A stretch of 64,000 nt of DNA from Fragum whitleyi. Lineage: Eukaryota; Mollusca; Bivalvia; Cardiida; Cardiidae. Of the stretch, positions 3,058 through 50,482 are shown one piece after another. The notes under the pieces are model-generated. The model was given only the letters and a program-made list of their open reading frames with translations, was not told where the DNA came from and did not search any database. Location of the stretch: the NCBI GenBank assembly GCA_948146395.1, contig OX411545.1, positions 17,180,526-17,244,525 on the forward strand. The letters run 5' to 3'. Numbering within the stretch: the first letter of the stretch is position 1; each line of letters begins with the position of its first letter. Position numbers and translations under genes: made by a program.

Positions 3058-4091
3058 AACTAGAAAGCCATGAATGGCTTGTGTCGCTCCACAGGCTTGA
3101 AATTCTTGTAAAGTAGTAATAGTTTTGACTAGATTTTTAAATATTTTGGATTCTACTGATGTTGAAAATGATTTTCAAAGTTTCCCCTATATAACACATA
3201 GAGAAATGACCTCCGCCCATTAAATGCATATTTTTCATCCATTCACAATAATTTTTGTAGATTGATAGAGGGTCACTCAAGGATTATTCCAGTGAAATTT
3301 GGTTGATATCCATCATTTAGATTCTGAGAAAATGATTTCAAAAGTTTCCACTATATAACATATAGAGAAATGACCTCCGCTCATAAAATACAAATTTTTC
3401 ATCCAATCACAATATTTTTTGGTAGACTGTTAGAGGGTCACTCAAGAAAGATTCCAGTGATATTTGGTTGATATCCATCATTTAGTTTTGGAGAAAATGA
3501 TTTTCAAAGTTTCCACTATATAACATATAGAGAAATGACCTCCGCCCATAAAATACATATTTTTCATCCGATCACTATAATTTTTGGCAGACTGATAAAG
3601 GGTCACTCAAGGATGATTCCTGTGAAATTTGGTTGATATCCATCACTTACATTCTGAGAAAATTACTTTGAAAGTTTCCACTATATAACATATAGAGAAA
3701 TGACCTCCGCCCATAAAATGCATATTTTTCATCCGATTTCAATAATCTTTTGTAGACTGATAAAGGGTCACACAAGGATCATTCATGTAAAATTTCATTG
3801 GTATCCATCAATTAGAATCTGAGAAAACTCACTTTTTACCATATTTGGAAATTAGCCACGCCCATTAAATCCATGTTTTTCATTGGATCAAAATTTCTTG
3901 AACAACTTTGAAAGAGGGTCACCCAAGGATCATTCCTGTGAAGTTTGGTTGAAATTCATCCAGTAGTTTCTGAGGAGAAGATTTTTAAAGAAAAAGTTTA
4001 CGAACGGACGCACTGACGCACGGACGGACGCACGACGGACACAACGCCATGACAATAGCCCCAGTGGCTTTCAGCCAGTGGAGCTAAAAAA
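3058..4091 (+). mobile_element. Tandem-core element with GGACGG microsatellite
   Basis: Begins near AGAAAGCCATGAATGGCTTG (a hairpin), then about four ~170-bp units (AGAGAAATGACCTCCGCCCA, ATTTTTCATCC, TTTGGTTGATATCCATCA), then ACGGACGGACG and a terminal hairpin in CCCCAGTGGCTTTCAGCCAG. A second copy is at 58146-59405. Confidence 0.7.
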
Positions 4092-7245: not shown

Positions 7246-7422
7246 AAAGCATTCCATCTGGATAAGTTTTATTATGGCAATTCTTAAAGCGAAATAAAAT
7301 AATGCTATATCAGCTGTTATCTGTATGTTTCTGTGTGGATGGTATCGAATTTGAGGTAGAGCTTCGTAAAGTCTTCAAAAATGGAAGGAGGTCTGAAACA
7401 GAGAATGAAAAAAACATTAATT

Positions 7423-7674
7423 TTAACCCTTTTCTTGCTGAATAAAATTTGCATTTTTTTTTGCAAAATTGCATTGAAAACAAAGTCCTTTAAACACTAC
7501 TTGTTAGTCAGTATTCATTTCAAAAACAATATTTTTTTTTTAAACTTTTCTGGTTTAATTAGGAATATCAGGTGGTATGGACTTAGATAGGACTGCACAT
7601 TATGTGCAGGCCGATCTTTGTCTATACCTCCTGCCAAAGCAGGAATATTCTGAGTTCAGCATGTCAATGATTAT
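7423..7674 (+). mobile_element. piggyBac-type MITE, family 2
   Basis: Starts TTAACCCTTTTCTTGCTGAA and ends GTTCAGCATGTCAATGATTAT, diverged from the family ends TTAACCCTTGCCATGCTGAA. Other copies: 24900-25426, 26990-27237, 41440-41686. Confidence 0.65.
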
Positions 7675-8084
7675 CTAACAGTTATCATGTCTAATTAAAC
7701 CCATCAAACTCCTATTGAATCATAATTTACTATTTCTTTGTCAATAATAGAAATTATCAAGCCTCTAATAAAACTTCAATCTGCAAGTTGTAAATTTGAT
7801 CATAACTTCAATTCAGCCATTTCAAAGGTTTATCAACCCCCTGAAGTTTAAAAAGCATTTTTCATTGAAAAAAAATCATTTTTTTCATTTTTCATAGAAC
7901 TATAACTAATAGTATGTTGAAAGTAAGATGTCATAGTGGCCCAAAATTGGTTTATCCAAAATGACAGACTTGAACCTATTCAATACAATCCTTTAATCAA
8001 AACAATAGTGACAAAATATACATGTATATACATTATATATTATTGATAAAGCCATGGGCATAAAATACATAGAGCATAATCATT

Positions 8085-8225
8085 TGTTTTGGTGTCAGAT
8101 CAATTTACATTTCATTGAGTGAACAGCAAAAGCTATATTTTCTCAAGTGGCGGAGCAACAAGTGAAAACAAAGCGTTTGTCGTTCACAAAATGAAATATA
8201 AATCTATCTTACACTGTAACAAACT
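8085..8225. mobile_element. Palindromic element (AGCTATATTTTC family), diverged copy
   Basis: Inverted arms TTTCATTGAGTGAACAGCAA and TCGTTCACAAAATGAAAT around a short centre; related to 35195-35336, 39836-39975 and 42780-42870. Confidence 0.6.
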
Positions 8226-8319
8226 AGAACTGTCGCAGAGTGGACTTATACCCCCCTCAAATTGCAAGTGCTTTTAGTGCTGGATGTGTTTGTTACAAAT
8301 ATTGAGGTAATACACAGCA

Positions 8320-10345
8320 TTAGTATTGAAGTTTTGTGATTTAAGGTCGCTTGGTTCTTGGGTTAGAGTCTGGAAATGAAAATTGAACACAAGAGGCCCA
8401 AGAGGGCCTGTATCGCTCCACTGGCTTTAAAATCTTTAGACTTTCATTAAATAAAGCTTACTTTAAATGAATACATTAACACTCAAAATCTCCTAAGACC
8501 TTTTTAGTAATGATTACATGGTTTTTGTCCATATTGCACCAAAATACTCAATCACAATGAACCTGCAACCCTAGACCAATCTTATTATAACATAAGGTTC
8601 AGAAGATGTTGTTCAAAACTTTTGGGCTCAAAATAGGCCCCACCTGACATGCCCATATTTATGGACCAAACAAAATTTCTTGAACAATTTAAGTAAATAG
8701 TCACCCAAGAAATATTCTGGTAAAGTTTCATTGAAATCGGCTGAGTGGTTCCAGAGGAGATATCGTTCAAAGATTTTGGCCTCAATATAAGCCCCGCTCT
8801 GCCACTCCCAAATTTATAGGCCTATCAAAATTTAGCAAATAATTTTTGAAAAGAGACACTCAAGGAATATTCTGGTGAACAGTGATTCAGGAGGAGATGT
8901 CGTTCAAAGATTTCGGGCTCAAAATAAGCCCTGCCCTGCCCATATTTATATACCAATCAAAATTTCTTGAACAATTTAAGTAAACGGTCACCCAAGGAAC
9001 ATTCTGATAAAGTTTCATTGAAATCAGCCCAGTGTTTCAGGAGAAGATGTCGTTCAAAGATTTTGGCCTCAATATAAGCCTGCTCTGCCACGCCCATATT
9101 TGGGGGCCAATCAAAATTTTTTTAACAATTTAAGTAAAGGGTCACCCAAGGAACATTCTGATAAAGTTTCATTGAAATCAGCCCAGTGGTTCAGGAGAAG
9201 ATGTCGTTCAAAGATTTCGGGCTCAAAATAAGCCCCGCCCTGCCACGCCCATATTTATGGGCTAATCAAAATTTCTTGAACAATTTAAGTAAAGGGTCAC
9301 CTAAGGAACATTCTGTTAAAGTTTCATTGAAATTGGCCCAGTGGTTCAGGAGGAGATGTCGTTCAAAGATTTCGGGCTCCAAATAAGCCCGCCCTGCCAC
9401 GCCCATATTTATGGACCAATCAAATTTTTTTTAACAATTTAAGTAAAGGGTCACCCAAGGAACATTCTGATAAAGTTTCATTGAAATCAGCCCAGTGGTT
9501 CAGGAGAGATGTCGTTCAAAGATTTCGGGCTCAAAATAAACCCCGCCCTGCCACACCCATATTTATGGGCTAATCAAAATTTCTTGAACAATTTAAGTAA
9601 AGGGTCACCCAAGAAACATTCTGATATAGTTTCATTGAAATCGGCCCAATGGTTTGGGAGGAGAAGATTTTTAAAGATTTCAAAGTGAAAAAATGCCACA
9701 CCCTGCCACGCCCATATTTGGGGGCCAATCAAAATTCTTTGAACAATTTAAGAAGGGGCCCACCCAAGGATCATTTCTTCAAAGTTTCAGTAAAATCCGC
9801 CCATTGGTTTGGGAGGAGAAGATGTTTGAAGAAAAAGTTTACGAACGGACGGACGCAGGGACGCACGACGGACACTCCGCCATGACAATAGCTCGCTGGC
9901 CTTCGGCCAGTGGAGCTAAAAAATTGACTGTGACCTTGACCTTTGACATATGTAGCCCCAAAACAATAAGCACTACCTTGAGTATGAAGCAACATTTGCA
10001 TAAAGTTTCATGACTTTGGGTTGCTTGCTTTTTGAGGTAGAGTCTGGAAATGAAAATTGAACAAAAATTGACTTTGACCTTGACCTTTGACTTATGTGAC
10101 CCAAAAAACAAAAGGGCACTACCTTGAGTCATAAGCAATATTTGCATAAAGTTTCATGATTCTTGGTCACTTGGTTCTTGAGTTAAAGTCCGGAAACGAA
10201 AATCGAACAAAAATTGACTGTGACCTTGACCTTTGACCTATGTGACCCAAAAGCATAGGGCACTTCCTTGGATCATAAGCAACATTTGCATACAGTTTCA
10301 TCATTGAAGGTCACTTGATTCTCAAGTTATAGTCAAGTTATAGGA
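8320..10345. repeat. ~125-bp tandem repeat carrying a nested element
   Basis: Units with TGACCTTGACCTTTGAC, GGGCACTACCTTG, GCAACATTTGCATAAAGTTT and AGTCTGGAAATGAAAATTGA run at 9923-10345, with one partial unit at 8320-8387. The two parts are separated by the element at 8388-9922. Confidence 0.7.
8388..9922 (+). mobile_element. Tandem-core element (Helentron/pearl-like), complete
   Basis: Starts CAAGAGGCCCAAGAGGGCC and ends GGCCTTCGGCCAGTGGAGCTA, both able to form hairpins. About seven ~165-bp units (GTCGTTCAAAGATTTCGGGC, CACGCCCATATTTATGGG, AAGTAAAGGGTCACCCAAGG) are followed by ACGGACGGACGCAGGGACG. This matches the architecture described for oyster pearl elements: flank, tandem core, ACGG microsatellite, hairpin flank. 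Confidence 0.7.
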
Positions 10346-11247
10346 GGGGGGGGGAGGAGGGATAATAATCATTAGCCCTACCAGATCCACCTGTACCTTT
10401 TGTTGACAGTGATTCGAAGTCATTGGTACCTTTAGACTGGTTAGACATCGCTACAATATATCTGAAACAACAACAGCATAAAATGTCATTAAACTTTGAT
10501 ATCAAGAATTATACAGAAATAAATGCAAAATGCCCCAAATTTGTATTTGAGGCATGCAGTATTATAGGTTTATTTCACACCTAAACAATTTAAACCAATG
10601 ACATCACTTATTTTGCATCACGTGAGAGTGAAATATCTAGATCCATATTGTACAACCAAAATGAGGCTACTGTGCAATACGGATTTTATTCCACATCGAA
10701 GCAACCTATATTGTACGATGAAAGTGAGGCAAGCTATATTGTACGATGAAAGCGAGGCTGCAGTCCCGAATATAGAAATCACCACTTTTCACAGCCTTTT
10801 CAATATATCAAACCCTCTGTTCGGAGGTTTTGAAATAAGTTTGATCTTGAAAAGATTCATGATTTCTTCATTTGTTTAATTGTTAAGCAAGTAAAAGAAG
10901 AATGCAAGTGACATAGAGGGACACAAAATTGTTGTTGTTTCTTGACTTTAAAATATCATTTGTTCACATGAAAACGTACATTTCAAGCGACGACGGGTAG
11001 TTAACCTGTTTTATGTTGATAACAAATTTAAATCAGTTAAATCAGTTAAGCACTTATCGACTTGACACATGAAATAAACATTTCACGTGGAATTCTATTT
11101 TTAGAACAAATGTTTCTTTCAATTTCATCATGTTCATAGTGACTTGCATTTGACGCCCTTATCCGGATCATTTTGGATCTATTCCCTTTGTCTCTCTCAA
11201 ATGCCACAAATCGTAAATTGTGGAACTTTCAGTGTATGGTGTGAAAT
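10346..11247. other. Non-coding sequence with a short direct repeat
   Basis: 10645-10755 has three copies of a ~30-bp motif including TATTGTACGATGAAAG. A G-rich run is at 10343-10352. No gene recognised. Confidence 0.4.
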
Positions 11248-11415
11248 AAAGATGTCATTTAACATGATCGAGTACAATACTGAATTCATCGGATTCGTAC
11301 CCTGCAGAACCAGTCTATATTTTGACTCGGCTATCGCCTCGTCAAATATAGACTGGTACTGCAGGGTACTCATCCAATAGAATTCAGTATTGTACATGAT
11401 CATGTTAAATAACCT
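11248..11415. mobile_element. Foldback (palindromic) element
   Basis: Arms of ~75 bp around a ~20-bp centre near 11330; for example CAGTCTATATTTTGAC pairs with GTCAAATATAGACTG, and AACATGATCGAGTACAATAC with GTATTGTACATGATCATGTT. Confidence 0.75.
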
Positions 11416-11513
11416 CTTAATACTGGGCATATGGTATCACAGACACCTACAATGTTTTCTAACTAAGCCAGTGATGTCTTTTGTTTGACGTTTGTCATTC
11501 AAATACATATAAT

Positions 11514-11755
11514 ATGAGTCTGTGTGTGACATTTCCAACAATTGGACATGTACATGAAGGGCCAACATTAACAAATATTGACTGCCTTGTAGTATATTAA
11601 GAAGTTGGCCTGACTTTCTAAAGACACTTTTGGACCTCATCTTTCTACAAAGCCCAAAGTGAATACCCTGGTCAGACTGTGCAGTTGCACAGGCTGTCCA
11701 GAGTCTTCGCTCAACGCACATTTGAAATTGTTGGAAATGTCACACACAGGCTCAT
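11514..11755. mobile_element. TIR MITE, ATGAGCCTGTGCGTGA family
   Basis: About 30-bp terminal inverted repeats: ATGAGTCTGTGTGTGACATT at the left and AATGTCACACACAGGCTCAT at the right, both with TCCAACAATT. Other copies at 22260-22501, 41751-41994 and a truncated one at 48535-48730. Confidence 0.8.
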
Positions 11756-12406
11756 GTGTCATTTTTAATGATATTCTTGAAATATTCTGCAGTATATGCT
11801 GTTTCATTATGGTAACAAATTGCTTAACAATGTGGTAAAATATTGTTTTACAACAAACAAATTTGTATACTCTGATATGTATGCTTTATACGCAAGACTT
11901 AGTAGTCAGTCCATTTACACATCAATGACACACTTTCATCGAATTTATCCTTAACGTTTTATATTCCATCTCATTTTGCATGACAGAAATTTAATAATCA
12001 TTTTACACAAATTTAATACTCGCTTAAAATTTGAAAAAAATATCCTCTCTACGGGATCCTATTTTCAATGGCTTGATATATACATAAAGAAAGAAGTATT
12101 GCAACATTCTATTTTTAAATAAAATATTTCCCAACAAAGCTAACAGTGGTAGCTTGTCACATTTAAGACACTAGAAAATATTTGCAGTGAACCTTATAAT
12201 CTTGTTAGAAATAAAAATCAACCTTTTACCCCAAATAAGCCTAAATTACTTTAAGACTGATCATTCTCCCTTATCTAAAAGTACCAATCACAATAACTGT
12301 ACAACCAATATCTTATATATCCACAAGCACTGGCTATCGTGGCACTCACTTATCATACCCTAGACCAGACATTGTGTATCATTCCTGCTATTACTAGCAG
12401 CACCTT
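11756..12406 (-). other. Probable IDO 3' untranslated region and downstream sequence
   Basis: AT-rich, no ORF. No AATAAA is seen on the minus strand close to the stop; ATTAAA at 12012-12017 is a candidate signal. Confidence 0.35.
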
Positions 12407-12666
12407 TCACAACAGTAACAGCTTTCTAATTGGAGGTAGATCTACTAGTTCACATATTCCCACACCCAAATGTCCCACACATGTTCCTTGAGATTCACTT
12501 CTGGCTTTATCGAAATAACTCTTATATCTACGTAATCCAGATGTTTCAATACTTTTTTTCCATGTGTATATGTACTTGTGAACATAAGGGAAAACTCTAA
12601 AGGTAATGACAATCTTTCCAAGAGATGACAAACTTGAATCAACAAGAGCCAAACATTGCATGCTGC
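12407..12666 (-). CDS. IDO: IDO exon 11, likely last exon
   Basis: The acceptor TTTTGTAG is followed by two bases that complete the Gly codon left by exon 10, then 85 codons and TGA. Two blocks look IDO-like: TFRVFPYVHKYIYTW (compare human LRSYHLQIVTKYI) and GTCVGHLGVGICEL (compare GTGGTDLMNFLK). The residue aligned with human His346 is Pro if the Arg is used as anchor, so the proximal ligand is unclear. An ATTAAA-type polyadenylation signal may lie at 12012-12017. Phase fit is exact but divergence is high; an alternative last exon is possible. Confidence 0.6.
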
Positions 12667-15600
12667 CTACAAAACTCAGTCTGTTATAATTTTTCTACCA
12701 TTTTTTTCCAACTACTTACTTTGTAACAATCTGTATATGATAACTCCTGAAGTCAACTACTGATTTTATACAAGCTTCATAAGCTGATGATAGTACATCA
12801 CAACACTGCTTAGTTACTGTAATTAGAAAAGAAATAGGGTAAACTCTGCTAAAAGCAAATCGTTTCTTATAGCATTTATCAAGGGATTAGTTAAAACTTA
12901 TATTGCTAGTTTGTGATTCCAACATAGAGACAACATACCCAAGGTTTTGACAGTAGACATATTTTCTTTCCAGACTTTAAATTCTCTATGTAGTGATATT
13001 GCTAGTGTGTGATTCTAACATAAAAACAACATACCCAAGGTTTTGACAGCAGACATATTTTCTACCCAGACTATAAATTCTCTATGTAGTAATATTGCTA
13101 GTATGTGATTCCAACATTAAGACAACATACCCAAGGTTTTGACAGTAGACATATTTTCTACCCAGACTATAAATTCTCTATGCAGTGATATTGCTAGTAT
13201 GTGATTCTTACATAAAGACAACATACCCAAGGTTTTGACAGTAGACATATTTTTCTTTCCAGGCTATAAATTCTCTATGTAGTGATATTGCTAGTATGTG
13301 ATTCTAACATAAAGACAACATACCCAAGGTTTTGACAGCAGACATATTTTCTACCCAGACTATAAATTCTCTATGTAGTAATATTGCTAGTATGTGATTC
13401 CAACATTAAGACAACATACCCAAGGTTTTGACAGTAGACATATTTTCTACCCAGACTATAAATTCTCTATGTAGTGATATTGCTAGTATGTGATTCTTAC
13501 ATAAAGACAACATACCCAAGGTTTTGACAGTAGACATATTTTCTACCCAGACTATAAATTCTCTATGCAGTGATATTGCTAGTATGTGATTCTTACATAA
13601 AGACAACATACCCAAGGTTTTGACAGTAGACATATTTTTCTTTCCAGACTATAAATTCTCTATGTAGTGATATTGCTAGTATGTAATTCCAACATAAGGG
13701 CAACATACCCAAGGTTTTGACTAGATTTATTTTCTACCCAGACTATAAATTCTCTATGTAGTGATATTGCTAGTATGTGATTCTAACATAAAGACAACAC
13801 ACCCAAGGTTTTGACAGTAGATCTATTTTCTACCTAGACTATAAATTCTCTATGTAGTGATATTGCTAGTATGTGATTCTTACATAAAGACAACATACCC
13901 AAGGTTTTGACTAGATTTATTTTCTACCCAGACTATAAATTCTCTATGTAGTGATATTGCTAGTATGTGATTCCAACATAAAGACAACACACCCAAGGTT
14001 TTGACAGTAGATCTATTTTCTACCCAGACTATAAATTCTCTATGTAGTGATATTGCTAGCACAGTAGAATACTTTATTTAGAACTCAGATAATAGGATTT
14101 TGGGGTTATAAGCAACTTTTCCTCCAGCACAAAACCATTTTCATTTTAGCCTAAGTAAAATTTGTCAGATGATCAGACCTCTGATAAAAGAAACTCCCGT
14201 ACAATGGAAACAATTTTTTTGCACCATAACCCTATTTTTTTATATAGGAAACAATCATGAGGTGACATCGGGACAAAAATGTTTTAGAACACAAATTAAC
14301 AAGTTTTGACTGATTTTACAGTGACGCCTCAATTCCGAGGGTTCACATAGACACGTCAACATGACAAGTTGTTGATTGCACCTTACCCATTTTGCAATTG
14401 TTATTTTATTGGGTAAATTAAATGATTGGACAAATGCTAGCTTTGCATTCTTGTTTTTATCGAGTGTTGTCGGTGATTATTAAGACGACATATTTCATCT
14501 GGAGCTGCTTCTTTATCCATTTCCTTTTCATTAAAAAAAAAATTGTTGCATTCGAATAACACATTTGAAACAAATCGTGGTAACTAAGTCAATTCAGAGC
14601 AATAATAACTTACTTCAAATTTAAAGTTATAATCCTAATTAATTGTCGAAACTTTGAAATTTCTACCGATGGATGACATTTGGATTTGAAAGCCGTTGGT
14701 ACTCGGGATAATTGAGAAGCGTAAATAAATTTCAAAATAACTTTTTTTTCATTTCCGTTAAATTAAAAGGGGACAAAAATCTATACAAACCATCGGAGCT
14801 GGCCAAATGTACTCGTATGCATTCAAACATGTGTGCACAGTTACTTCTTATGCCGTCAATGTAATCCTACACTTCCGACATTTGGTTTCTGACTGAAACA
14901 GGATTTCTGATAATATAAACCTCCGCTTAATAGCAACTTTTCTTCTGACAAATAGGTGTTGCTATTAAGCAGATTCCTCTGTATGTGATTCTAACCAATC
15001 CAGAACATACCTATGGTTTTGACAGTAGATCTATTTTCAATCCAGACTATAAATTCTCTATGTGGTGGTATCATCTGTATGTAGTTCTTACATTAAGACA
15101 ACCTACCAAGAGTTTCGACTAGAAGTTAGAACTATTTTCTATCCAGACTATAAATTCTCTATGTGGTGATTGCTAGTATATAATTCTAACATAAAGACAA
15201 CCTACCCAAGGTTTTAACAGTAGATCTATTTTCTATCCAGACTATAAATTTTGATATTTCTATGTGGTGGTAGCTTTGTTATGTAGTTTTAACATAAAGA
15301 CAACTTACCCAAGGTTTTGACAGTAGATCTATTTTCAATCCAGACTATAAATTCTCTATGTGGTGGTATCATCTGTATGTAGTTCTTACATTAAGACAAC
15401 CTACCAAGGGTTTCGACTAGAAGTTAGAACTATTTTCTATCCAGACTATAAATTCTCTATGTGGTGATTGCTAGTATATAATTCCAACATAAAGACAACC
15501 TACCCATGGTTTTAACAGTAGATCTTTTTTCTATCCAGACTATAAATTTTGATATTTGTATGTGGTGGTAGCTTTGTTATGTAGTTTTAACATAAAGACA

Positions 15601-18600
15601 ACTTACCCAAGGTTTTGACAGTAGATCTATTTTCTATCCAGGCTATAAATTTTGATATTTCTATGTGGTGGTAGCTTTGTTATGTAGTTCTAACATAAAG
15701 ACAACTTACCAAAGGTTTTGACGGTTGATCTTTTTTCTATCCAGACTATAAATTTTGATATTTCTATGTGAAGGTAGCTTTGTTATGTAGTTCTAACATA
15801 AAGACAACTTACCCAAGGTTTTGATGGTAGATCTATTTTCTATCCAGACTATAAATTCTCTATGTGGTGGTATCATATAGTTTCTCATCTCCAGTAAAAA
15901 CTTCTTTGTGTCTGTATTTGTAATAAATAATATATGACACATGAAGCTAATTTATATAAATTAGCCTGCTCTCTCAAATTTCAGCAATCTCATCTATGTG
16001 GCACACATTTTGAGCAGCCTAAACAGGTGCACAATTATTGGCTGACTTTCCAAGGAAGGGTTAAGACCTCTTCTAGCTTCAGAGATCATTGTTCAGACTC
16101 TGGTTAGAAGCTTTGTTTTGTGCACATGCAAAATTAAAGGATATATCATTCACAGGTTCATGTTTTAATTGAGCTATGATGTAAATTTAACCACACTGTA
16201 TGATTACACAAAGTGTACACATACATGTTATGTATGGCTGTGAATCAGGTTTTTTTAGTCGGGTGTTTTTATGTAATTCATAGCTGACAAAGCCTTTGGC
16301 AGGTTCATATGTAAGAGGGTGACTTATATTTGATCCATTCTCCAGGAAAACCTGCCTTAATTACAATATAATTGACAAAGACATAAAATACAATTCTCAA
16401 AAAATTGATTTTTTTTCTGAAAACAAGAATAATATGTTATTCTTCAAACAGAAAAAAATGCTTTGTATCTGTTTGTGAGCTTTTTTTGGCACAAGCCGTA
16501 AGTTGAATGCACTGAAATCAATTAAGTGGGAAAATATCGCAAAAATTTAGAAATTGCTTGTTTTAAGCAATTTCTCCCCTTTTCTTTTTTTCTTTCAATT
16601 GAAATACACGTTAAATCATAGCTGCAAATTCTCTGAAATTGGACTAGTCTGAAATTGTTTGTTATGTAGCAACTGGGTTAGACAACAAAAATTACAGATA
16701 TATCATTAAGGCAGATTTTCCTGGAGAACAGATCATTTGTTCTTGATTGCCATAATACATGGAATCACTGAATCTATGTAAAATTCAATAATTTGCTTGT
16801 TCAGCAGGATCAATGACTTATATACAATCTTTTATCAAGGAGACATGACACTAACCTGTTTGATGGACAACCCCCAATAATGCATCGATAGATTGTAATG
16901 TAGAACTTTGTGCTGCACTGGCTCCCATCATCTATAATTATAAGTGAATAGACTATCTTTTAATTTCATTGAGAGTTGAAACTAAAAACCTAATCACACT
17001 GTATGAATATGCAAAGCGTATTCATACATAAGTGTGATTAGGTTTTAAGTTTCATACCTCCACAAAATTAAACAAGGTGCCATATTGTCACAGTATATGC
17101 CTGTCACACAGCTTGATGTAACTTTGGGTTAAGAGTAGAATTGAAATGATTTCAAATGAATATCTTTTAGACAATTTTTCTGTTGATAGCCAGAGATAAA
17201 TAATTGTAGTAAGAGTATATTATCATTATGATCAAAGGTCATATACTTTTAGAGATAAACTTTGGAAAAGATTCAAGTATGAAAAACAACAAAGAGCAAC
17301 AACTCAAAAAATAAGCCAGGTAGAGTTTTGGTTCTTTTGCACTGCACTTCCCTTTTACACAATCAATTCACCCATGAAGTTTCATGATCATAGCTCACAT
17401 ACTCTTAGAAACTTGCTGCAGACAAGATTCAAGAATGAACAAGAGCTTCGCAGAGCGGCGCATACACGCCCGAAGGGGCTTGTCAGTAACCTTGGCTTGT
17501 CAGTAACGTGAGCTTGAATGATAGCTAAACATATTGCAAACAGACAGACAGACAACTGGTGCCATAACATTTAAATATGAAAATATATTTAGTCCTAAGC
17601 ACAAAAAGACAACCTACAGAGTCATTATGGCAAGTTTCCTTTCATTCCTATCCATAATGTAGGAGAAAATGAGCCGACAAGAAATTTGTTTTTCATCAAC
17701 TCAAGGGCAGATAATCCAAGATAACTCTAGAATAACTGGAGCATTTTGAATTGAAAAGTCTTGTGCAAAACTAGACATCATAGAGAGTAATTGTGTCTAG
17801 TTTCAGCTCATTTCAATTGATAGTTAAGGAGGAGTTGCACACAAAATACAGTGATTTTCGTTAAATTCAAGGGCTGATAATTCAACATTTCTCAGGAATG
17901 ACGGGAGCGATATGAATTTCAAAGGTCTTATGCACAACTAGACATCATAGAGAGTAAATAGGTGTAATTTCAGCTCATTCCCATTGATAGTTTGGGAGGA
18001 GTTGCGCACACAAAAAACAGTGATTGAGGTTTTTTAAAGGGCAGATAATTCAAGATTTCTCAGAAATGACAGGAGCAATTTGAATATCAAAGGTCTTATG
18101 CACAACTAGACATCATAGGGAGTAATTGTGTGTAGTTTCAGCTTATTCCCATTGATAGTTTGGGAGGAGTTGCGCACACAAAAAACAGTGATTTTTGTGA
18201 TATCAAAGGGCAGATAATTCAAGATTTCTCAGGAATGACTGGAGCGATTTGAATTTCAAAGGTCTTATGCACAACTAGACATCATAGGGAGTAATTGTGT
18301 GTAGTTTCAGCTTATTCCCATTGATAGTTTAGGAGGAGTCGCGCACACAAAAAATTGCTAACGGACGGACAGACGGATGGACGGACAGACAGATGGACGG
18401 ACAGACGGACGGACGGACAACCGAGGCCATAACATAATACGACCCTTCGGGCAAATAAAAACTACAAAGGGCAATAACTCAAGAAATAAGCCAGATAGAG
18501 TTACAGTTCTTCTGCATTTCACTTTCCCTTGATGAGATCTATCTACACATCAAATTTCATGATTGTAGCAATTATACTTTTTGAGATATGCTCTGTATAC

Positions 18601-21600
18601 TTTTAGAGATATGCTCTGGACAAGATCAAAGTATGAAAAACAACAAAAGGCAATAACTAAGAAAATAAGCCAGGTAGCGATATGGTTTTTTTTTGGCATT
18701 GCACTACGCAGTGATGAGATCTATTTACCAATCTAGTTTCATGATCATAGCTCCTATACTTTTAGAGATATGCTCTGGAAAAGATTCGAGTATGAACAAG
18801 ATGTGTTTATGAAACACAAATGCTCCTGTGACAGTATTTTTTTTCAAAATATTGACATTGACAGATGACCTTGATTTTTTAGCATGACCTTGACCTTGAA
18901 ACCTACAGATGTTCATCACTGAGATCTTTCATCATGCCAACTTTGAGACAGGGTATCTAAAATAAGCTTGAATAAACTAAACAATGTAATTACTATGCAT
19001 TATGCAACAATGTCTTGACAGAAGACCTTGAGCTTGTCACATGGCCTTGACTTTAAAACCAGCAGTTGTGGATCATTGAGATCCATCATCATGTCAAATA
19101 TGATCCTTGTATCTTAAATAGGCGTGAAGATATTGGCAATGTTAAGTTTTTGGGTTATTTGACCTTGACAGATGACCTTAACCTTGTCACATGACCTTTA
19201 CTTTGATATCAGCAGATGCAGATCATTGAGATCTATCACCATGCCAAATATGAGCTTTGTATCTTGAATAGGCTTGAAGATATTGGCAAATTTTAAGTTT
19301 TTTTGTTAACTTTTGCAGAAAAACAGACAGACGGACAGACAGATGGACAACGTTTAAAAATATGGCCCCGATCTTTCGATACGGTTGCATAAAAATGGGT
19401 GATCCCGTAATATGTCCCCTCTTTGACAGGGATATAAAAAATACTCTCTTCATATCTTATAATTCAATATGATTATGCCAAAAATGGAAGAATTTCTCCG
19501 TTATAAGACATATTTTATGTTGGACTACTTTTGGTGCATTCATAAAAAATAGCTGCATACTCATACCATAAATGTTTTCATAAAAAAAAATGAAAGCATT
19601 TTTTCAACCAATCAGAATGCATGAGAATAGATGGAAACTAATTATAATAAATAATTTATAAATGAACATGTAGTACATGTACTCAATATCACAAGTACTC
19701 AAATATGTTCAGCAGCCAAAATAGCCTTAAAATACAATAGAATATCTCCACATTGTTCCACATCTTGCAAACCTAGGATTCTAATTTAACTTAAGTCCTT
19801 ATCAGAGCTACAGATAAAGGGAGTATTTTGGATTTCAGATCTATGTATTTCCATAAATATAGCACAAGCTCTGTTTGTCAGTACAATAAAGATTTTAGAC
19901 TGGTTTTATCCCCTCCTATCTGTACATCTGCTTATGAATATGCCTAAGGATCAACAAAGTAGACTTAGATCCCTTAGTCAAAAGATAATTGAAAGAGCCA
20001 TTTTGAGAGGGATATGTTACAAAATGTCAAAATACAGCACGTTTACTACAAAATTTATTGTATTTTCTATTTAATCCAGTAATGGTACTTGTTTTGTCCA
20101 CCTGTGTTGTAAAAAATGTCAAGAAACAGTTTTATAGTTCCTGGCAACCATAGCAATCCCATCTTGGTTTGCTTATCCCATTTTCCTGGGTGTCCTTGTT
20201 TGGAAACATTGTTCAGACTTTTTTCATAAACTGCTAAGTATCTCGTTCATAGGTTTAGTAATTTTGGGTAATTTGTTTTAGGTATTTCAATTTCTGGTGG
20301 TTCTTTGGTTTATACACTTGAAGAAAAATACATCTTGTAAATTCTTTCTAATCTTTTGGGCATATCAAAATTGATGATAAAACGCAGTAAAACACTTTTA
20401 TTTGTTTGTAGATTTTGTTTTTTGCAACCTCATCCTAAGTATAATAGTAGAAAATTGTGACATTGTTAAAACCCACATACAAAATGACTCGCTTTCATGG
20501 CTGTGTCCTTATTAATCCCTAGGTCTATTCCATAGAATCACCGAGGGATCTCCATTTGGTTGCCTGATATTCATTCTGTGCATTGGTCTGAAACAGAACT
20601 GTTGTGCCAACCTACAGAACCTAATTTATAATGTGACCTTCGTCATAGGAGTGAAATAATGTCATTGAATATTTTTGATATTACACATGTATTAAAACAC
20701 TACTGTATTACTATGCAAATGAGCTCAAAGGGTCACTTAACACTTTTTTGTTGTCATGAAAATGATGTCATAAAGGACCGGATGATGCCCTTTTACTAAC
20801 AGCTTTATATGTTACAGGGAAAATATGAATTTCAACAACTTTGTTGATTTATCGTGTAAATTCCGGTCATTTTATATATTGCACTGACCTGGAAATAAAA
20901 TCAACAAAATATGTAATAAACATTTCGATAGACTGCAGCATCTGTGATTCTCAGAGAGGCAAGCATGCACAGAAAACTGTTGACATGGTAACATGTAATC
21001 CATGGGTGACCAAAATATCACAATAAAAGTTTGAACAAGAATTATTAACCACAATTCACCAATGAATGCAGAGGTAATCAATCATGAACAGAAATTTAAA
21101 TTTACATGATTTGACGCAAAGCAGTTGCAACTGCCTATATATTTATAGGCAATTACTAGTGGCTTGCATTGTTTCATTGATACGTTTCTAAAGACAGCTC
21201 CAATTCATCTCCCAATAACTAGACTGGAACTCAGTTGTCTTGGTTCTATCATTATTAGACCTTAGTTCAGTTACCCAGTCTATCTACCTGTTTTGGTTGT
21301 TTATCCACTCCAGTATAAATCAAACCATCTGGTAATGGTGATCCTTCACCTCCCCACCTATACAATAGAGACAAGAGCCATGTCCGACTTGGCCATCCCC
21401 AGCCATGAAAGCTTGATAGTAAACTGAAGCCTAATCAAAGAACAATAACTCAAATATTATGCAAGCAAGAGTTGTAGTTCTTGTGCGCTGCACTTCACCT
21501 CAATGAGCTCTATCCACAGATTCAAGTTGATATGCCATGGACAATTTTAGTGATGGAATGACAGACGGACACCATTACTATAGCCCCTTCGCTGAACCAG

Positions 21601-24600
21601 CGCGGGATAAAAATTGTAATTTGACCTACGCCTGGGGAAAGAAATAACCCCGTTGAATATTTTTGATATTACAGGGGTGCTACTTCACTAGTGGAATAAC
21701 TATGTAAATGAGCTTAGAGTGGATATTAACATTATATTTTTGTTGTACAAATGATGTAATAATGTATTTGCTGACACGTTACATGTTTTGCCAAATAACT
21801 TGAACTCAAAATATCTGGAATTTCCTCAGTTTATTTAAAAGACTTCAGGCAATATTATTAAAAGAATATCAAATTTGTGCTCTTAAGATACCAAATTTAT
21901 TCAACTTGTCATCTAAAACAGATATATTTCAATTTTATTTAATATACATCCATATTTTTTTGCCTCCATAGAAAAAATTCACTTTTTATTCCTGAGGAGC
22001 ATTTAAGGAAAGACCTCAATCTTTCAGTCAGTTTTGCTCTTACAAGAAATTGTATTAAATCTTGATGTTCTTCATCTAAAACTATAATTACATGTTGATT
22101 AAGCACATCAATGTTGAGATTGGTCGGCATAATGAACAATTATCTTTGATATTTTCGAAAACATGACCACCTTCGGAAAAATGTTCATATTTCAAAATAT
22201 GTGTGGAAAGCTATGTTGAATTCTTAACTTTATTTGTGTATACGAATGGCCTAAAACATATGAGCCTGTGCGTGACATTTCCAACAATTTGAAATGTTCG
22301 TGAGATGCCAAAATTGAGCAGGGTAGACAGCCAAACACTGTAACTATAGAGTAACCTTATGGTCTACAGATAACTCGAGACCTTATCTATCTATTAAATG
22401 CAAAGTAAAGACTCTGGTCAGACTGTGCGGATGCACAGGCTGGTCAGCATCTTTGCTTTGTGCATATTTGAAATTGTTGGAAATCTCACGCACAGGCTCA
22501 TATATCTTTTTGCGGATATTAGGATACCCCCTGAAACTGCAACATCCCACCTTAAATCATAGATGGAAAAGTTTGAATCAGACTTGGTATGATATGCCAA
22601 AAATTAGAATTTTGTTTGTGAAACAAAATTTACTTTCAGCAAGTTGTGTAATTGTTTTAAAGCTGGTTTAATCATGACTTACCCTGATAAAAATGGCCTG
22701 ATCACATTGTAGAAAGTCGTAGCTGACAGTCTCTCTAAAAGAAACAATTTTTGATCCTGTTAATGGTTAGTACAACAAGTAATTTCTTATTCTCACACAA
22801 TTTTTTCCACCATATATCAAGGGGTCAGTGCACTACTATTGTAAGTGCCTATAAAATATATAGGCGATTACAAAAGTATTGCCCTGATCCCTTGAATTTT
22901 ATTATGATGTTTTCAAATTGTTTCAACTTTTCATTGTCCTGCCACCTCTTGTAATTTGAACCAGTCTAAAATTTGGAAAAACAGGGAAAGGATTAAAAAT
23001 CCGTCCTTGAAAGCACTTGAAAGCACTGTTTGTACTTTGATAATGCGCATACTCCTAATTTCAAGTACAAATTTTAAGTAATTTGTAGGGTCAGCGAAAA
23101 AACTATTGTAAATACTTATACACACTTTCAATTATTATTATTTTGTATTATTACTATTATTATCAATCATTATTGTCTCGAAACAGTCAATTTATAAATG
23201 TGACCTGTTATGTGAAAAGGGGCCATCTGGGTAGTGAGCAAAGTGTGGACCCTAGTCAGACTGCTTGAATTGCACAGGCTGGCTAGAGTTGACCCTTTCT
23301 GCTCTTTACTGATTTTCTTAAATCTGGAATGATCATTCTACCTTATTGTGAAAAAAAATTAGATTCGACCTCTGGTTGACCTCTGCTTGAACCAATCTCT
23401 TTTTTGAATATTTATTACACAGACTTCTCAGATGGTCGTTTCATGTGACATGTCACAAATAAATTTAACAGAATTTTCCTACCATGCATTGTAGATAATG
23501 TTTCCTTCATTTTCTTCAATATGACAGCTAAACTTTGTAAATTGTATACTAGTTCTTCAATATTGCCGTGTTCTGCATTGTAAACTGCTCCGAATATATG
23601 CTAGAAAGAAGGAAATAGTAATGTATATTGTTATATACAAGAGGACCATGATGGTCCTAGATCGCTCACCTGAGTCTCTTTGACCACTGGGACATCACAT
23701 AAATTAAATAGGCAGATATCAAAAAGGAGATAGTTCTACATAAGCTCAATACGGTGGAAGTTTTTCAGCCAAGAGCTAGACAGATTTGCCTTTTCGCCCT
23801 TTGATTCTATGTAAAAAGGGATGCGCCTGGATGGAGCCCAAATGTGACCCCAGGGTCTTGATATGAACAAACTTGGTAGCAGTCCAATAGATGATGCTAT
23901 GTGGGTCATCCAATAAAAAGTGAGACTAATGCTATAATGCATCACTAGTTAATATATATGAAACTATTATTCCACTATTGTGCAGTGTAACACCTTCTTC
24001 AATGATTGGCAAAAACCTACCATCATACTTTATATGGAACCCTTATTGCTAGGCAACAGGAAGAGGTACCATATGAGATAATGGCCATGTTAACCCCTTA
24101 ATGTTTCAGTGATTAAAAACTTCATATTGAACTACCTTGGTTTTTTTATATTTTCATATTTTTACCCTTTTTGTTAAGGGTAAAGGGAAAGTTAAGGGTG
24201 GATTTCAATTATGTGAACAACTTTGGTAGAGCTTGACCCAAGGAACATCCCTGCCAAGTTTCATCAAGATTGGTCCATTGGTTCAGGAGGAGAAGATGTT
24301 CAAAGAAATTGTGGACGACGGACGACAGACGAAGGACGACCAACATTGTACAATCACAATAGCTCACCTTGAGCACTTCGTGCTCAGTTGAGCTTATAAA
24401 AAAGTAGCTAAAGATTTAGGATCACGTAAATCAAATTCTTGGTTCAAAGAGAACAATGATGATAGGGTTTTGCTATGATCATGTGTCCTTAAATATTTCC
24501 AAAATGTCTCTACACTAAGGGAAAGAACTTTGGAAAATCAATTTGAAATACAAGCAGACAAAGAGACTTGAGACCATGATGCTCCTATATTGCTCATCTA

Positions 24601-27600
24601 AGTCTTTGACCACATCTAATGAATGAGATTGGCAGGTGTTCATGTCAAAGGAGATAATTTGTATCTAATATCAATGCACTAGAATGTTGTAAGACAAGAT
24701 AATTGTTAAAAGAGTTGTACTTTCTTTTTATGTAAAAAGTGAAATCTATGGGCTTAGGAAACATCCACATCTTAATGTCATAACTTCATCTTATTCAAGC
24801 TGTACATACATCATTTAAAGTCGTTTATCAGTTAAAATGTTGAAACAAAATAGCATAAAAGGACAGAGGTCAAAAGTTATTATGGTATTACTTAGAGTTT
24901 TAACCCTTGTTATGCTAAATAAAATTCTTTGCAAAATTGCTTTGAAACCAAAGGCCTGAGAGCACTGAATTCACTATTTGTGAGTCAGTATTTAATTAAA
25001 CAAGAGATGTTTATAAACATTTATGCCCCCCAAAAAAGCAGCTCAATAGCTTTTTCTTTGTCATTCAACAAAAGGCAATTAGTTAACTCACAAAATATGA
25101 TGGGTAGAGTTATGGTTCTTGTGTACTGCACTTCTCCTGAATAAGATCTATCGACCTGTGGAGTTTCATAATTGTAACCTGCATTCTTTTTTTTGAGATA
25201 TGCTCTGAACAAAAAAGAGTCTACAGACCGACAAGTGCAAAGCAATATACCCCCTCTTCATTGAAGGGGGGGGGTTATAAAATATCATTATAACCTTTTC
25301 TGGTTTAAAAAGGAAAATCAGGTTGTGTGGACTAAGATCAGACTGCATATAATATGCGTGTGCTGATCTTTGTCTATACCCCCTGACAATGCAGGAATAT
25401 TTCATGTTCAGCATTATGAGGGTTAATCAATTAAATGATTTTTTGATTGACAGCAGAGATCTGTTAACACTCTCCTGTTTTACAAAATTTTAGACCTGTC
25501 CAAATTCAAAGGTTTTGCAGACGGAAATTTAAAATGGATTTAATTTGAAAAATAACTATTCAGTAGGGTAGAAAATAGTGTGGAAAAAGAAGAAATTGCT
25601 TGTCAGAAGCAATTTCTTCTTTTTTTCACTATGTTTTCTCAATCATAAAATCACAGGCACGTAAAAAGCAGGAATTCAACAGCAAAGAGTTAAACTACTC
25701 ACGGGTATTGCGGGTCCAAAATCCCTCTCTACACGACTCGTTACAGAAATAAACCAATCAGCTTCTTCCTTCCCAGGTAACTGATATAAGGATTTTATAC
25801 ATCTAAAAAATTAATTAACCATTGTCAACATGAGATAGTGAATAAGAAGAATAAGATGGTTCTTGATTGTTCACCTTATTTCCCTTCTAATTCAAATATT
25901 CTACAAGTTTTAAATGGAAATATTGGCAATAACCATGCATGTAAATATTGTAATTAACAAAACATCTGAATATTGTTATTAACAATACATGTAAATATTG
26001 TCATTAACATAACATGTTAAAATTGTAATCAAAGATGCACACATTTCAGAAATGACTTATATTTTTTCAAATATGTCAGTCCCTTTGGTGCAAAATTTTA
26101 GCAATACATGTATTTGTTGTATGTTTCAAATTGAAGGGTATAAATGGCCAAAGGCTTCTTTACTATTACACCAGCTAAACAAGTACCCTGAGAAACTGCG
26201 ATACAAAAGTATCAATACAATAACTGAAAGATAAGATTGAAAACTGAATTCATCATCTCAATGTGCAAGATTTATGCCCATGTGCAGCTGAAAAACATTC
26301 TTAAATGCAAAATTATTTATCTTGTAATCTTATGATGTTGGAACCCATTTAGAAATGTCTCAATGAGACTATTGGGTTCAAACACTATAGAATTCAGTAA
26401 GAATTTTGCCAAAATTTGTACATGCTATACATGCTATAAATGCAATCCAGCATTTTCTTCCTTAAAAACAATATTTTCTACTCTTTGATACCAACATTAA
26501 AATAATTAATTGCTTCTATCATTTTGGTACCATTCAAAGATTTACACTGTAATTTACTTGTCCATGGACAAGAAGCCTGAAAAAACGTACTTGTCTACAG
26601 GTAGAAATGCCAAAGTCGGGCATGAGAATTCCACAACCCTTTATATATCAACGTACCTTTCCTTTTCTGACCATCTCCAATTTGCCAGGGCTAAACTACA
26701 GTGAGATATAATTGGTTTCACACCCAGAACTTGTGATACATTAAACCATGGAACTGATATACACTCTGGTAAAGCCTACAATAGAAAGGAAACAGTGTAG
26801 GAGGAAAGAAGAGTATTCATAGTGATCGACCAATCATCTCATAAAAATCTTACCTTTAACCTATTTGAAAAACATTTCAGAACCCTTCAAACCAGGGATG
26901 GTGCTCTGTCCCTGTTGATTCAATGGTAATGGTTTTACAGTTTTCACCAGACACTAACTGAAGTCCCGCAAGAAACCCTACTTTTCATCTTAACCCTTGC
27001 CATGCTGAACCCCGAATATTCCTGCTTTGGCAGGAGGTATAGGCAAAGATCAGCCTGCACAAATTTGCAGTCTGATCTTAGTTCATACCACCTGAAGTTC
27101 ATTTTTAAACCAGAAAGGTGTAAAACAATGCATTTACGAAATCAATACTCATTCACATTTTGTAACCATCAGGGCTTTTAGCACTTTGATTTTACATTTA
27201 TTTTGCAAAGATTTTTATTCAGCATGACAAGGGTTAAAGATCCCTTTGGGCAACAAGGGATCTCATCCATCATTTAGATAGGTAGGATTCTAAAGAAAGA
27301 GGAAGAAAAATGTGCATATAGGCTATATGGTGATATAGTCTAGCATCTTTGCAAGGCAATGTTTCCAACTTCACTTTGTTCCTTAGTGAGGACAAATGTA
27401 AAGAACAAAGTGGAGTAAGAACCTGTATTTGAAAAGGTTTCAGCAGGGGTTGACACTACGTGGTTTTCAATATGGTCCCCCAGGAATCCTTTTTCTTTCT
27501 ACCCAGAAGCTCCCTGTGGATGATAAATAATCCCTTCCATCATTTAGATAGGCAGAATTCTTAAGTCAGGAAAAGGAAAATATGCATAGGTTGGTGATAT

Positions 27601-30600
27601 ATTCTAGTATCTTTGCAAGGCAATGTTTCATACTTCACTTTGTTCCTTACAAATGTAATGAACAAAGTGGAGTTAGAACCTTTACTTGAAAGGAAATAGG
27701 TTCTGATTGAAAGTACATTGTACACCTAAATTCTATGGATATAGAAGGATCCTGATGGAATCCATTGCTATGAACAAATGGTATCCCTCCCAATATTTTA
27801 GAATCCTTGGGATCCTGGAACACTGTTAGTGTTGGACCCTGTTTGTATGTTCAAGAACTGATGCTCTGTGTTTAGTGTCAAATATCAAGGCTGTAGGAAT
27901 TTTGATTAAAAGGAGACTATTATTGATTTTCTTTGACTTTTTTTTTCATTGTATCAAAGAGAAACATTCCTTCCAAATTTTGTTTATATAGGCCTAGTGG
28001 TCAAGGGGATGCTGTGTAAAAAAATTTGCTAAAAAAATAGATAAGACCTATTGACTGTCTTTCTAGTCTAGTTTCTTAAGAATTTCATTTTTAAAGAAAT
28101 TTGAAAAAAGCTTCATATCTATGAAGTCTTTATAAAATATGCTAGTTTAGTATGAGAAGAATTCAAACAGACAAACAAATAGACAGACAACAGAGATTTA
28201 CCAGTCCTAATTCCCCCATCTTTAACACTTTGTGAAAATAAAGTGTCTACCTATAACTTTTGTTGCGAGTATAATACCTACATGTGTCACATTTTTCTCT
28301 CCTTCCTGCCATATATAGCCTGATGCTATGATAGCTAACTGTAGATGAGCCAGCCTGTACTCTTTTGGAGAGGATAGCTTTGTATAATCTAACAGCTCCA
28401 TCTACAATGCAAGAAAGAATGTAGTCCAAATATTTATATGTTTAATACATGTGATTTGTTATGTTTCACAATTTGGCATTCTTATTTACAGTTTCAACCA
28501 ATTTACTTTACCTTGATTGGGAAACAATTTAAGTCCTTACAACTTAAATTAATCCCTCTCAATTCTGCTTCCTGGAAAACTCACCAGTACTAGCGCCAAA
28601 TGTGAGGAAGAAACTGATAGCCACTCCCAGGAATCAAACTCGAGACCTTATTTATAATTGATATTGTGCATGTACAAAAAACTGCACAATGAAAGCCAAA
28701 ATGTAAGATAAAAAGTATGTTGGAGCAAGTAAATGGACCTATATATAACTGTCTATAGATGCAGATTGCAAGACAATAACAAGGATCAGACTGTCTGAAT
28801 GCACAGGCTGATCAAAGTCTTTGCATCACGCATATTCCAAATTCTGGAAAATGTCTTGCTCTTGCTAATTTAATTTTGAAAGCCTACCTTATCTATCAGA
28901 TCTCTCATTCTTCTTTCAACAACAAGATTTGGCATTTCTTTTGCTGCATAATTCCAATGATCAAAATATGCTGGTAACCTATCCTGAAAATGTACAGTAG
29001 ATGTAGTTTTCTCTATCTGGTGTTTGAGTCTGATGTTATTCTTTGACTGGTCTCTTTTGAGGAAAATTAACATTGAGAGTCAAAACCTACAAACAGGGCA
29101 TGAGTTTAGCAAATGTGGTCTTTCAAAAAAAAAAATATGCTCTGTACTTTGTAGTTCTATGTTGTATGTTCTCTATTATTTGCCTTTCCAAATAACAATA
29201 ATTAAAGCTTTACAGAAATTACAGTATACATGAGTTGACGGGTGACGTCACGGGTCACGTGATGTTTACATCCGGGTAATCGCTGTAGGCAGAAAGATCT
29301 ACCAGTTGCATACACAAATAGTAAAATATCCAATGTTCAAGTTATTGGATTGTACATTTTTAATGATTATTCCCTGTTGACAAAGGTGTCAAAATTTAGA
29401 TAAATCATCCAACCTTTTGATTATGCAGTTGTCATCACATGACATTGTCTGTGAAAAGAATATTTCTCGTCGAAAGATAACCACCCAGAAATGGAAATGA
29501 ATGCAAACAAATCACTGTTGAGCAACTGATATATCGCGCATTCGACATGAATTAAGCTGTATTTACGTTTTTTGATCACTCATAAACGAAATATAGTATA
29601 TCTTACCTATACTGGGCTAATTCAAGTTTCAATGCCGATTTTTCTTTATCCCATTTCCGTTATTCACCCTGTCACAGAAATTTCAAACATTGGGAAAGGT
29701 TTTTATGGCCCTTTCCCCTTATTTGTCTAAAAATTATTAAATCAATTATTAGTTTAATCTGTTAATTTTGAGAACACCACCTACTGTTGAAAACCGATTT
29801 GCTTCCGTAAAAAGCCCCCCCCCCCCCCCCCCCCCCCCCATTTAGAAAATTGGTTAATTAAAGATAATAAACGAATCATCACGGTCGCCAAACACACAGC
29901 TTTTCTAGTTAGATTGTAAAATCCTATCAAAGAATTTTCATTATGTGACATAAAAATATTAGCCGCTATTAACACAATAATGTGTCATAAAGTTTGCTGT
30001 TTCTAACGCAATGATCCATACTACACGGCCGCGGAATCTCTTTCATCAGACCGTAACCAGATGCGCTTATTGATATTGCCCATGTCACGGTCATAAAACA
30101 GTAGCCGCTAATCACACACTTGCATTTGTCATAAGGACAAACATCTATAACATGTGCCAAATTTTAATGGATCTGACCGTGACGATGCACACGCCACTGA
30201 TTGATTGCTTTCATCTGGGCACAACTTTTACCCATTAACTACGAATTAGGCATAAAGTGTGAAGTTTCATTTGACACAAATCTTTAAATGCCTTATCAGT
30301 AAAAGATTAAATCAAATCAGCCCAATTAGCTCAGTTGGTAGAGCACCGGACTTCAAAACCAGTGGAGTTCGGCGGCGTGGGTTCGATTCCCGGGCTGGTA
30401 CACTAATAAAAACTAATTGTTTTTCGGATGAGACGTTAAACCGAGGCCCCGTGAGACGGTACTTTACACCGAGCACCTTAAAGAACCATGGCGGATCTCA
30501 GCAGTTGTTTCGTCATGTATCCTTGCACTATCCCCCGTAACAACTAACCGTCTTCTTGGGGCGTCGCTCATATGGGCATGTGCTACGGTAGCGACGATAA

Positions 30601-32686: not shown

Positions 32687-32763
32687 ATGAAAATAAACAA
32701 AAATACACAAATAGATGGCGAAAAAATAATTCTAGTACCATACGAAAGGAAGCATGTATTGAA
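32687..32763 (+). CDS. NAT9: NAT9 exon 1
   Basis: 77 nt, ATG at 32687. Encodes [20 protein letters not shown] then RKHVL and two bases of a Lys codon; donor GTAAAT. Matches the NAT9 start (MRLN...GKKVVLVPYTSEHV). LINE sequence begins within about 30 nt of the donor. Confidence 0.95.
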
Positions 32764-48790: not shown

Positions 48791-50482
48791 AGCTCACCTG
48801 AGCACGAAGTGCTCAACGTGAGCTATTGTGATGGGCTGCTGTCCGTCGTCCGTCGTCCGTCGTCAAACTTTACCTTGTGTGCACTCTAGGGGCCACATTT
48901 TTGGCCCAAATGTCTTGAAACTTGGTCAGAATGTGTGTCTCCATCAAATCTTGGTCAAGATCGAAATTGGGTCAAGTGGGGTCAAAAATGGGGTCAAGGG
49001 GTCAAATTTTAGGAAAAACCTTGTGTGCACTCTAGGGGCCACATTTTTGGCCCAAATGTCTTGAAACTTGGTCAGAATGTTTGTCACCATTCAATCTCGG
49101 TCAAGTTCGAAATTGGGTCAAAAATGGGGTCAAGGGGTCAAATTTTAGAAAAACCTTGTGTGCACTCTAGAGGCCACATTCTTGGCCCAAATGTCTTGAA
49201 ACTTGGTCAGAATGTTTGTCTCCATCAAATTTGGGTCAAGTTTGAAATTGGGTCAAGTGGGGTCAAAAATGGGGTCAAGGGGTCAAATTTTAGAAAAACC
49301 TTGTGTGCACTCTATAGGCCACATTCTTGGCCCTAATGTCTTGAAACTTGGTCAGGATGTTTGTCTTCATTAAATCTCAGTCAAGTTCAAAATTGGGTCA
49401 AGTGGGGTCAAAAATGGGGTCAGGGTGTCAAATTTTAGAAAAACCTTATGTGCACTCTCTGGGCCACATTTTTGGCCCAAATGTCTTGAAACTTGGTCAG
49501 AATGTTTGTCTCCACCAAATCTCGGTCAAGCTCGAAATTGGGTCAAATGGGGTCAAAATGGGGTCAAGGGGTCAAATTTTTAAAAAACCTTGTGTGCACT
49601 CTCGGGGCCACATTTTTGGCCCAAATGTCTTGAAACTTGGTCAGAATGTTTCTCTCCATTAAATCTGGGTCAAGTTCGAAATTGGGTCAAGTGGGGTAAA
49701 AAATGGGGTCAAGGGGTCAAATTTTAGAAAAACCTTGTGTGCACTCTAGAGGCCACATTTTTGGCCCAAATGTCTTGAAACCTGGTCAGAATGTTCCTCT
49801 CCATCAAATTTCAGTCACGTTCCAAATTGGGTCAAGAAGGTCAAAAATGGGGTCAAGGGGTCAAATTTTAGAAAAACCTTGTGTGCACTCTAGAGACCAC
49901 ATTTTGGGCCCAAAATGTCTTGAAACTTGATCAGAATATTTGTCTCAATCAAATCTCGGTCAAGTTCAAAATTCGGTCAAGTTGGGTCAAAAATTAGGTC
50001 AAGGGGTCAAATTTTCAAAAAAACCTTGTGTGCACTCTAGAGGCCACATTTTTGGCCCAAATGTCTTGAAACTTGGTCAGAATGTTTGTCTCCATCAAAT
50101 CTCGGTCAATTTAGAAATTGGGTCAAGTGGGGTCAAAAATGGGGTCAAAGGGGGGCAAATTTTAGAAAAACCTTGTATGCGCTTTAGAGGCCACATTTTT
50201 GGCCCAAATGTCTTGAAACTTGGTCAGAATGTTTGTCTCCATCAAATCTCGGTCTATATCAAAATTGGGTCAAGTCTGATCAAAATTGGGTCAAGGGGTC
50301 AAATTCTAGAAAAACCATGTGTGCACTCTAGGGGCAGTAGATTTGACTCAAATGTATGTCGTCTTGATATCTTTGACTTTTGTTAAGCCAGTAATGAATC
50401 TCAAATAAGTAGTGTTGGCACTTTGCTTCCTTTGTAAACTATTCCCCAGGTGAGCGCTTAAGGGCCAATGGTCCTCTTGTTT
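48791..50482 (-). mobile_element. Tandem-core element, 11 units of ~145 bp
   Basis: Read on the minus strand it starts CAAACAAGAGGACCATTGGCC and ends at the GAGCACTTCGTGCTC hairpin (48800-48815) after a GACGACGGACGACGGACG tract. CCTTGTGTGCACTCT recurs at 48872, 49019, 49155, 49299, 49443, 49588, 49733, 49877, 50022, 50169 and 50313. Units hold TTTTGGCCCAAATGTCTTGA and GGGTCAAGTGGGGTCAAAAA. Open frames here are repeat artefacts. Confidence 0.8.

Follow-up and report, generated by a model that had tools for sequence, protein, structure and literature searches.

Twenty copies of the exon 10/intron 10 boundary, probably a mirage-type minisatellite, in an apparently intact bivalve IDO gene

We analysed a window of 64,000 nucleotides from the bivalve Fragum whitleyi (GenBank assembly GCA_948146395.1, contig OX411545.1, positions 17,180,526 to 17,244,525 of the forward strand; all coordinates below are positions within this window). 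The minus strand carries an apparently intact IDO gene, and intron 10 of this gene contains 20 repeats of a segment that joins the 3′ end of exon 10 and its GT donor to about 40–50 nt of the intron start. This array is, with high probability, a minisatellite of the type termed "mirage" in lancelets, which arose by tandem duplication across the junction of exon 10 with intron 10 and expanded block by block, and it is predicted to be noncoding and to be spliced out with intron 10. The 20 copies are real and probably neutral, and by its structure the array belongs to a kind already known.

Twelve exons (exons 2–13) were modelled over a gene body of 7310..28983. The numbering presumes one further exon upstream, because no first coding exon was found. 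All 12 acceptors are AG and all 11 donors GT, the phases are consistent, and the joined frame is open up to the stop codon. The joined product reaches 324.6 bits with Pfam IDO (PF01231), far above the curated cut-off of 26, and it also matches solved IDO1 and IDO2 chains. It is 46–54% identical to the 13 relatives that were aligned (of 156 found). The best named matches are from Ruditapes, Mactra, Mercenaria and Dreissena, and several of the relatives bear the name "myoglobin-like". Around the array three separate pieces match the Pfam profile at positions 256–284, 288–320 and 324–362 with 17.8, 16.1 and 21.7 bits, each individually below the cut-off; the middle one is exon 10. A frame further upstream of the array reaches 49.9 bits in two stretches. 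These results bear out the original prediction, made from the letters alone, that the gene encodes IDO and that exon 10 carries the second IDO signature. In the protein region encoded by exons 10 and 11, gaps relative to the 13 relatives do not exceed one residue. The elements in and around intron 10 are as follows:

16856..16931, minus strand: IDO exon 9, 76 nt, ending in phase 1 as exon 10 does (Pfam and gene model)
15813..15911, minus strand: IDO exon 10, the parent exon, 99 nt, phase 1 on both sides, encoding ..KFLLEMRNYMIPPHREFIVWIENRSTIKTL
14982..15812, minus strand: proximal subarray, 8 copies, longer period of 298 bp, donors GTAAGT, GTAGGT and one GTATGT
14060..14981, no strand assigned: insertion splitting the array, 922 bp, unrelated to the array, borders ambiguous by a few bases
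12905..14059, minus strand: distal subarray, 12 copies, 96-bp unit with longer periods of 289/385 bp, donors GTATGT in 10 copies and GTGTGT in 2
12817..12938, minus strand: segment between the last array donor and the acceptor of exon 11, 122 nt
12720..12816, minus strand: IDO exon 11, 97 nt, carrying the SYHIQIVTK motif (Pfam and gene model)

The donor of exon 10 (TGG|GTAAGT at 15812) follows an exon 3′ end that reads ..HREFIVWIENRSTIKTL, directly continued by GTAAGT. Together with exon 10 there are 21 such donors on the minus strand, the proximal ones at 15812 (exon 10), 15709, 15606, 15503, 15404, 15308, 15205, 15106 and 15010, and the distal ones at 13992, 13898, 13802, 13708, 13611, 13515, 13419, 13323, 13226, 13130, 13034 and 12938. 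The anchor scan gave 22 matches, of which the one at 15009 was dropped, as it lies inside a copy already counted. From donor to donor the steps are 103, 103, 103, 99, 96, 103, 99, 96, 1018, 94, 96, 94, 97, 96, 96, 96, 97, 96, 96 and 96 bp. The 21 exon 10-derived copies and the 96-bp period with steps of 94, 97, 99 and 103 bp that had been proposed were thus recovered in the donor positions and their spacing; the single 1018-bp step is due to the 922-bp insertion, absent from the original description, that divides the array into 8 and 12 copies. Tandem Repeats Finder (TRF) scored the distal half (12900–14059) at 1973–2026 and the proximal half (15004–15872) at 937–1289, and also reported the longer periods of 289/385 and 298 bp.

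The last array donor is 122 nt away from exon 11, the donor of exon 10 2,996 nt, which is the length of intron 10. Array and insertion therefore make up nearly all of this intron, and the 122-nt segment is probably about as long as intron 10 was in its ancestral state.

The copies are partial exons. Each comprises about 50–64 of the 99 nt of exon 10 and no acceptor; the acceptor region and the first 35 nt of the exon are absent from all copies, and a BLAST search of the window with the acceptor region gave one match, the region itself. When the exon boundaries of the gene were compared with the window in the same way, the exon 10 donor gave 21 matches, and it was the only one of 23 splice boundaries with tandem copies (a 24th query covered the end of exon 13 at the stop codon, which is not a splice site). 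The other splice boundaries matched only themselves, except for the exon 5 donor with three further short dispersed matches. When the genome (1,224,646,155 bases) was searched at the DNA level with positions 12939–13300, at least nine matches were obtained (two candidates scored), all within the IDO locus. A dispersed mobile repeat was not supported by this lower-bound search.

For the 922-bp insertion, neither the window nor the adjoining 10 kb yielded a second copy. Close to one of its ends the insertion contains an inverted repeat of 16 nt, and inspection by eye revealed no clear target-site duplication. Judged in the same way, its ends (CAGAGGAAT / CAGTAGAAT) resemble short terminal repeats.

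Identity and variability of the copies were computed over 75 aligned columns. The proposed alignment of the 21 units was carried out, and the units match exon 10 and its donor flank at 80–95%: copies 2, 3 and 6 are 95% identical to this sequence, the other 17 copies 80–91%. Several copies are nearly identical to each other, in the proximal half copies 5/8 (99%), 3/6 (97%) and 4/7 (96%), in the distal half copies 16/19 (100%), 14/18 (99%), 17/20 (97%) and 10/12 (97%). Copies 3, 4 and 5 correspond as a block to 6, 7 and 8 (96–99%), and copies 14, 16 and 17 to 18, 19 and 20 (97–100%). A tree of the copies agrees in part with these block duplicates, with mixed support. The near-identical copies inside each half point to concerted evolution within the cluster.

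Among the 20 array copies 39 of the 75 columns are invariant (27 of 45 exonic, 12 of 30 intronic). Mean entropy is 0.253 in exonic and 0.366 in intronic columns, a difference that was not significant in a permutation test (p 0.21) that took no account of the relatedness of the copies and treated the columns as independent. Variable columns are distributed 4/4/4 over the codon positions, and the ratio of nonsynonymous to synonymous differences (pN/pS) is 0.77 in 11 in-phase sequences, among them exon 10 itself and copy 12 with its stop. Nine of the 20 copies are open in the phase of exon 10, ten are frameshifted, and copy 12 is in phase with a stop. The copies are thus probably neutral, with no coding constraint detectable in these columns. 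The description of the repeated element as an IDO signature exon holds for the 3′ part and the GT donor; it does not hold for a whole exon, of which only part is present, nor for the encoded peptide, which 11 of the 20 copies no longer encode in frame.

The array showed all structural features of a mirage that were tested, and by its structure it would belong to this type. An intragenic tandem duplication would have copied the 3′ part of exon 10, the 5′ splice site and about 40–50 nt of intron 10; near the junction, exon 10 (GAAACTATAT) resembles the intron (GAACTACATA). The copies would then have multiplied by unequal exchange or slippage, in part as multi-unit blocks, as the longer periods and the near-identical blocks suggest. 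The 922-bp sequence would have inserted into the array, and intron 10, perhaps 120 nt long at first, would have reached 2,996 nt. Normally, the whole array is expected to leave with intron 10 when the GTAAGT donor of exon 10 is joined to exon 11. Extension of exon 10 runs into a stop 6 codons on, whichever array donor is used (none of the 20 extensions is open), so in that mode of splicing the copies could act only as decoys.

Some of the data speak against a noncoding array that is merely removed with its intron. The peptide is still encoded in nine copies, and mean pairwise identity is 89.5% in exonic versus 84.4% in intronic columns, the difference not being significant. GT is kept in 20 of 20 copies, the eight proximal donors score 5.3–7.9, inside the range of the real donors (0.4–9.6), and of the 118 AG-donor pairs that lie within units 44 would keep an open frame, one example being a 63-nt exon, AISLHREFIVWVENMSTVKTL. 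Human internal tandem repeats at exon-intron boundaries, in segmental-duplication genes, can create new introns and change splicing (PMC2812944), and one intronic minisatellite of C. elegans is enriched near multiple alternative splicing (PMC4039745). These precedents keep alive the reading as a regulatory decoy or poison-exon array, in which U1 binding at the surplus 5′ splice sites, or premature-stop transcripts made from them, would tune the IDO level. Such a function would also fit the conserved GT, the proximal donor scores and the stop in every exon 10 extension. However, since 39 of the 75 array columns are invariant anyway, the retention of GT is unremarkable, and selection on the array donors was rejected on this ground. 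In addition, the 12 distal donors (GTATGT/GTGTGT) score 2.1–3.9, and mirages in the lancelet Adh3 and globin genes are described as having no effect on regular splicing (PMC3087553, PMC3902484). We regard a decoy function, which the original prediction had also offered, as unlikely. Very unlikely is its more far-reaching form, a selected decoy in which about 20 spare 5′ splice sites titrate U1 or give premature-stop and in-frame micro-exon isoforms, with an array length that sets IDO output and varies between individuals.

Mutually exclusive exon clusters of the Dscam type consist of many tandem exon copies in one gene, with symmetric phase. The IDO array likewise comprises many tandem copies of exon sequence with symmetric phase, and single units might replace exon 10 or follow it in the mRNA: phase 1 is shared by the ends of exons 9 and 10, and the 44 frame-keeping AG-donor pairs would permit it. 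Unlike Dscam-type exons, the copies are partial, lack the exon 10 acceptor and are frame-broken in 11 of 20 cases. The missing first 35 nt encode F255 and M259, which are invariant in 14 aligned sequences. No unit amounts to a whole exon bounded by an acceptor and a donor of its own, and the frame is not conserved throughout (9 of 20). The frame-keeping AGs are also poor acceptors, with a median score of −4.5 and a maximum of 2.8, compared to −2.8 to 13.2 (median about 3.9) in leave-one-out scoring of the 12 real acceptors; the matrix was built from these 12 sites of the IDO gene itself and is a rough guide. Their mean pyrimidine content is 0.45 versus 0.56–0.88 for the real acceptors. In intron 10 only 4 of 182 AGs (2.2%) reach the median of the real acceptors, versus 7.0% among the 895 AGs of the remaining introns, and 65 of 182 (36%) versus 42% reach the lowest real score. 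One of the four lies in the insertion and three in the array (13014, 13303 and 13782), and none of these three is among the 44 that keep the frame. Alternative exons of this kind, which the original prediction had offered as one of three readings, are most improbable. A slowly decaying duplication, another of the three, fits best with 11 of 20 frames broken and no sign of coding constraint, and the idea that an exon/intron boundary has turned into a satellite-like array was borne out.

Tandem arrays are error-prone in assembly, and a single assembly is the source of the sequence, so an over-expanded repeat has to be considered. Against such an artefact, the units can mostly be distinguished, they form two diverged groups flanking the 922-bp insertion, and the contig spans 96.5 Mb. 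There is little chance that the array as a whole is of this origin; since copies 16 and 19 do not differ in any of the compared columns, the exact copy number may be off.

The mirage-type minisatellite favoured here has counterparts in lancelets. Boundary-spanning "mirage" minisatellites occur in the lancelet genes Adh3 and the globins BflGb6 and BflGb9 (PMC3087553; also PMC3902484), and in TnC and PGBD5 (PMC3087553, PMC3902484). The units of BflGb6 are 150–160 bp long and 81–100% identical (PMC3087553; PMC3902484), and many, though not all, of the lancelet copies carry AG/GT splice signals (PMC3087553). Mirages are also characterised by concerted evolution of their clustered copies and by lengths that vary between alleles or cells. 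The term does not occur in PMC5802833. The IDO array shares the anatomy of a repeat spanning an exon/intron boundary, and splice signals within the copies (GT in 20 of 20). It differs in copy number, with 20 copies versus 3 and 6 in two haplotypes of BflGb6, and in sitting in a bivalve IDO gene, in being interrupted by an insertion, and in being known from the sequence of one assembly. The human boundary repeats are likewise minisatellite units at an exon boundary; they average 30-bp units and 4 repeats, with altered introns supported by RNA, versus units of about 96 bp in 20 copies seen in the genome sequence alone in the IDO gene (PMC2812944). The metallothionein gene of an earthworm is reported to have duplications of the fourth exon and a separate intronic minisatellite in intron 1, which is not an exon-boundary array of the size found here. 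A limited literature search found no published IDO or bivalve case of such an array. The IDO array would extend boundary-spanning mirages, which we found in print for lancelets, to a bivalve, with more copies than in the lancelet globin case. A single 5′ splice site followed by 20 graded versions of itself offers a natural test of donor choice by the spliceosome. Such boundary copies may also be a source of new introns or exons, a possibility raised in the lancelet globin paper (PMC3087553).

Eleven tandem arrays of the window that lie below 26.1 kb were compared with the exon model, and only the array at exon 10 overlapped an exon. Many other tandem arrays, with basic periods of about 132–176 bp, lie at 1592–2316, 3164–3827, 8754–9819, 48872–50335, 52613–53574 and 55837–57154. 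Rfam gave no match in the array; its only two matches in the window are to the tRNA family, at 43077–43147 (plus strand, 42 bits) and at 30320–30396 (plus strand, 29.7 bits, barely above the cut-off of 29). At 32763–35738 on the plus strand there are open reading frames of 290, 526 and 181 amino acids, which resemble a retrotransposon of the non-long-terminal-repeat type on account of motifs such as FADDAKLY. A separate tandem array with a unit of about 97 bp is located at 38923–39394, and on the minus strand it ends in the acceptor-like sequence TTTCTGCAG.
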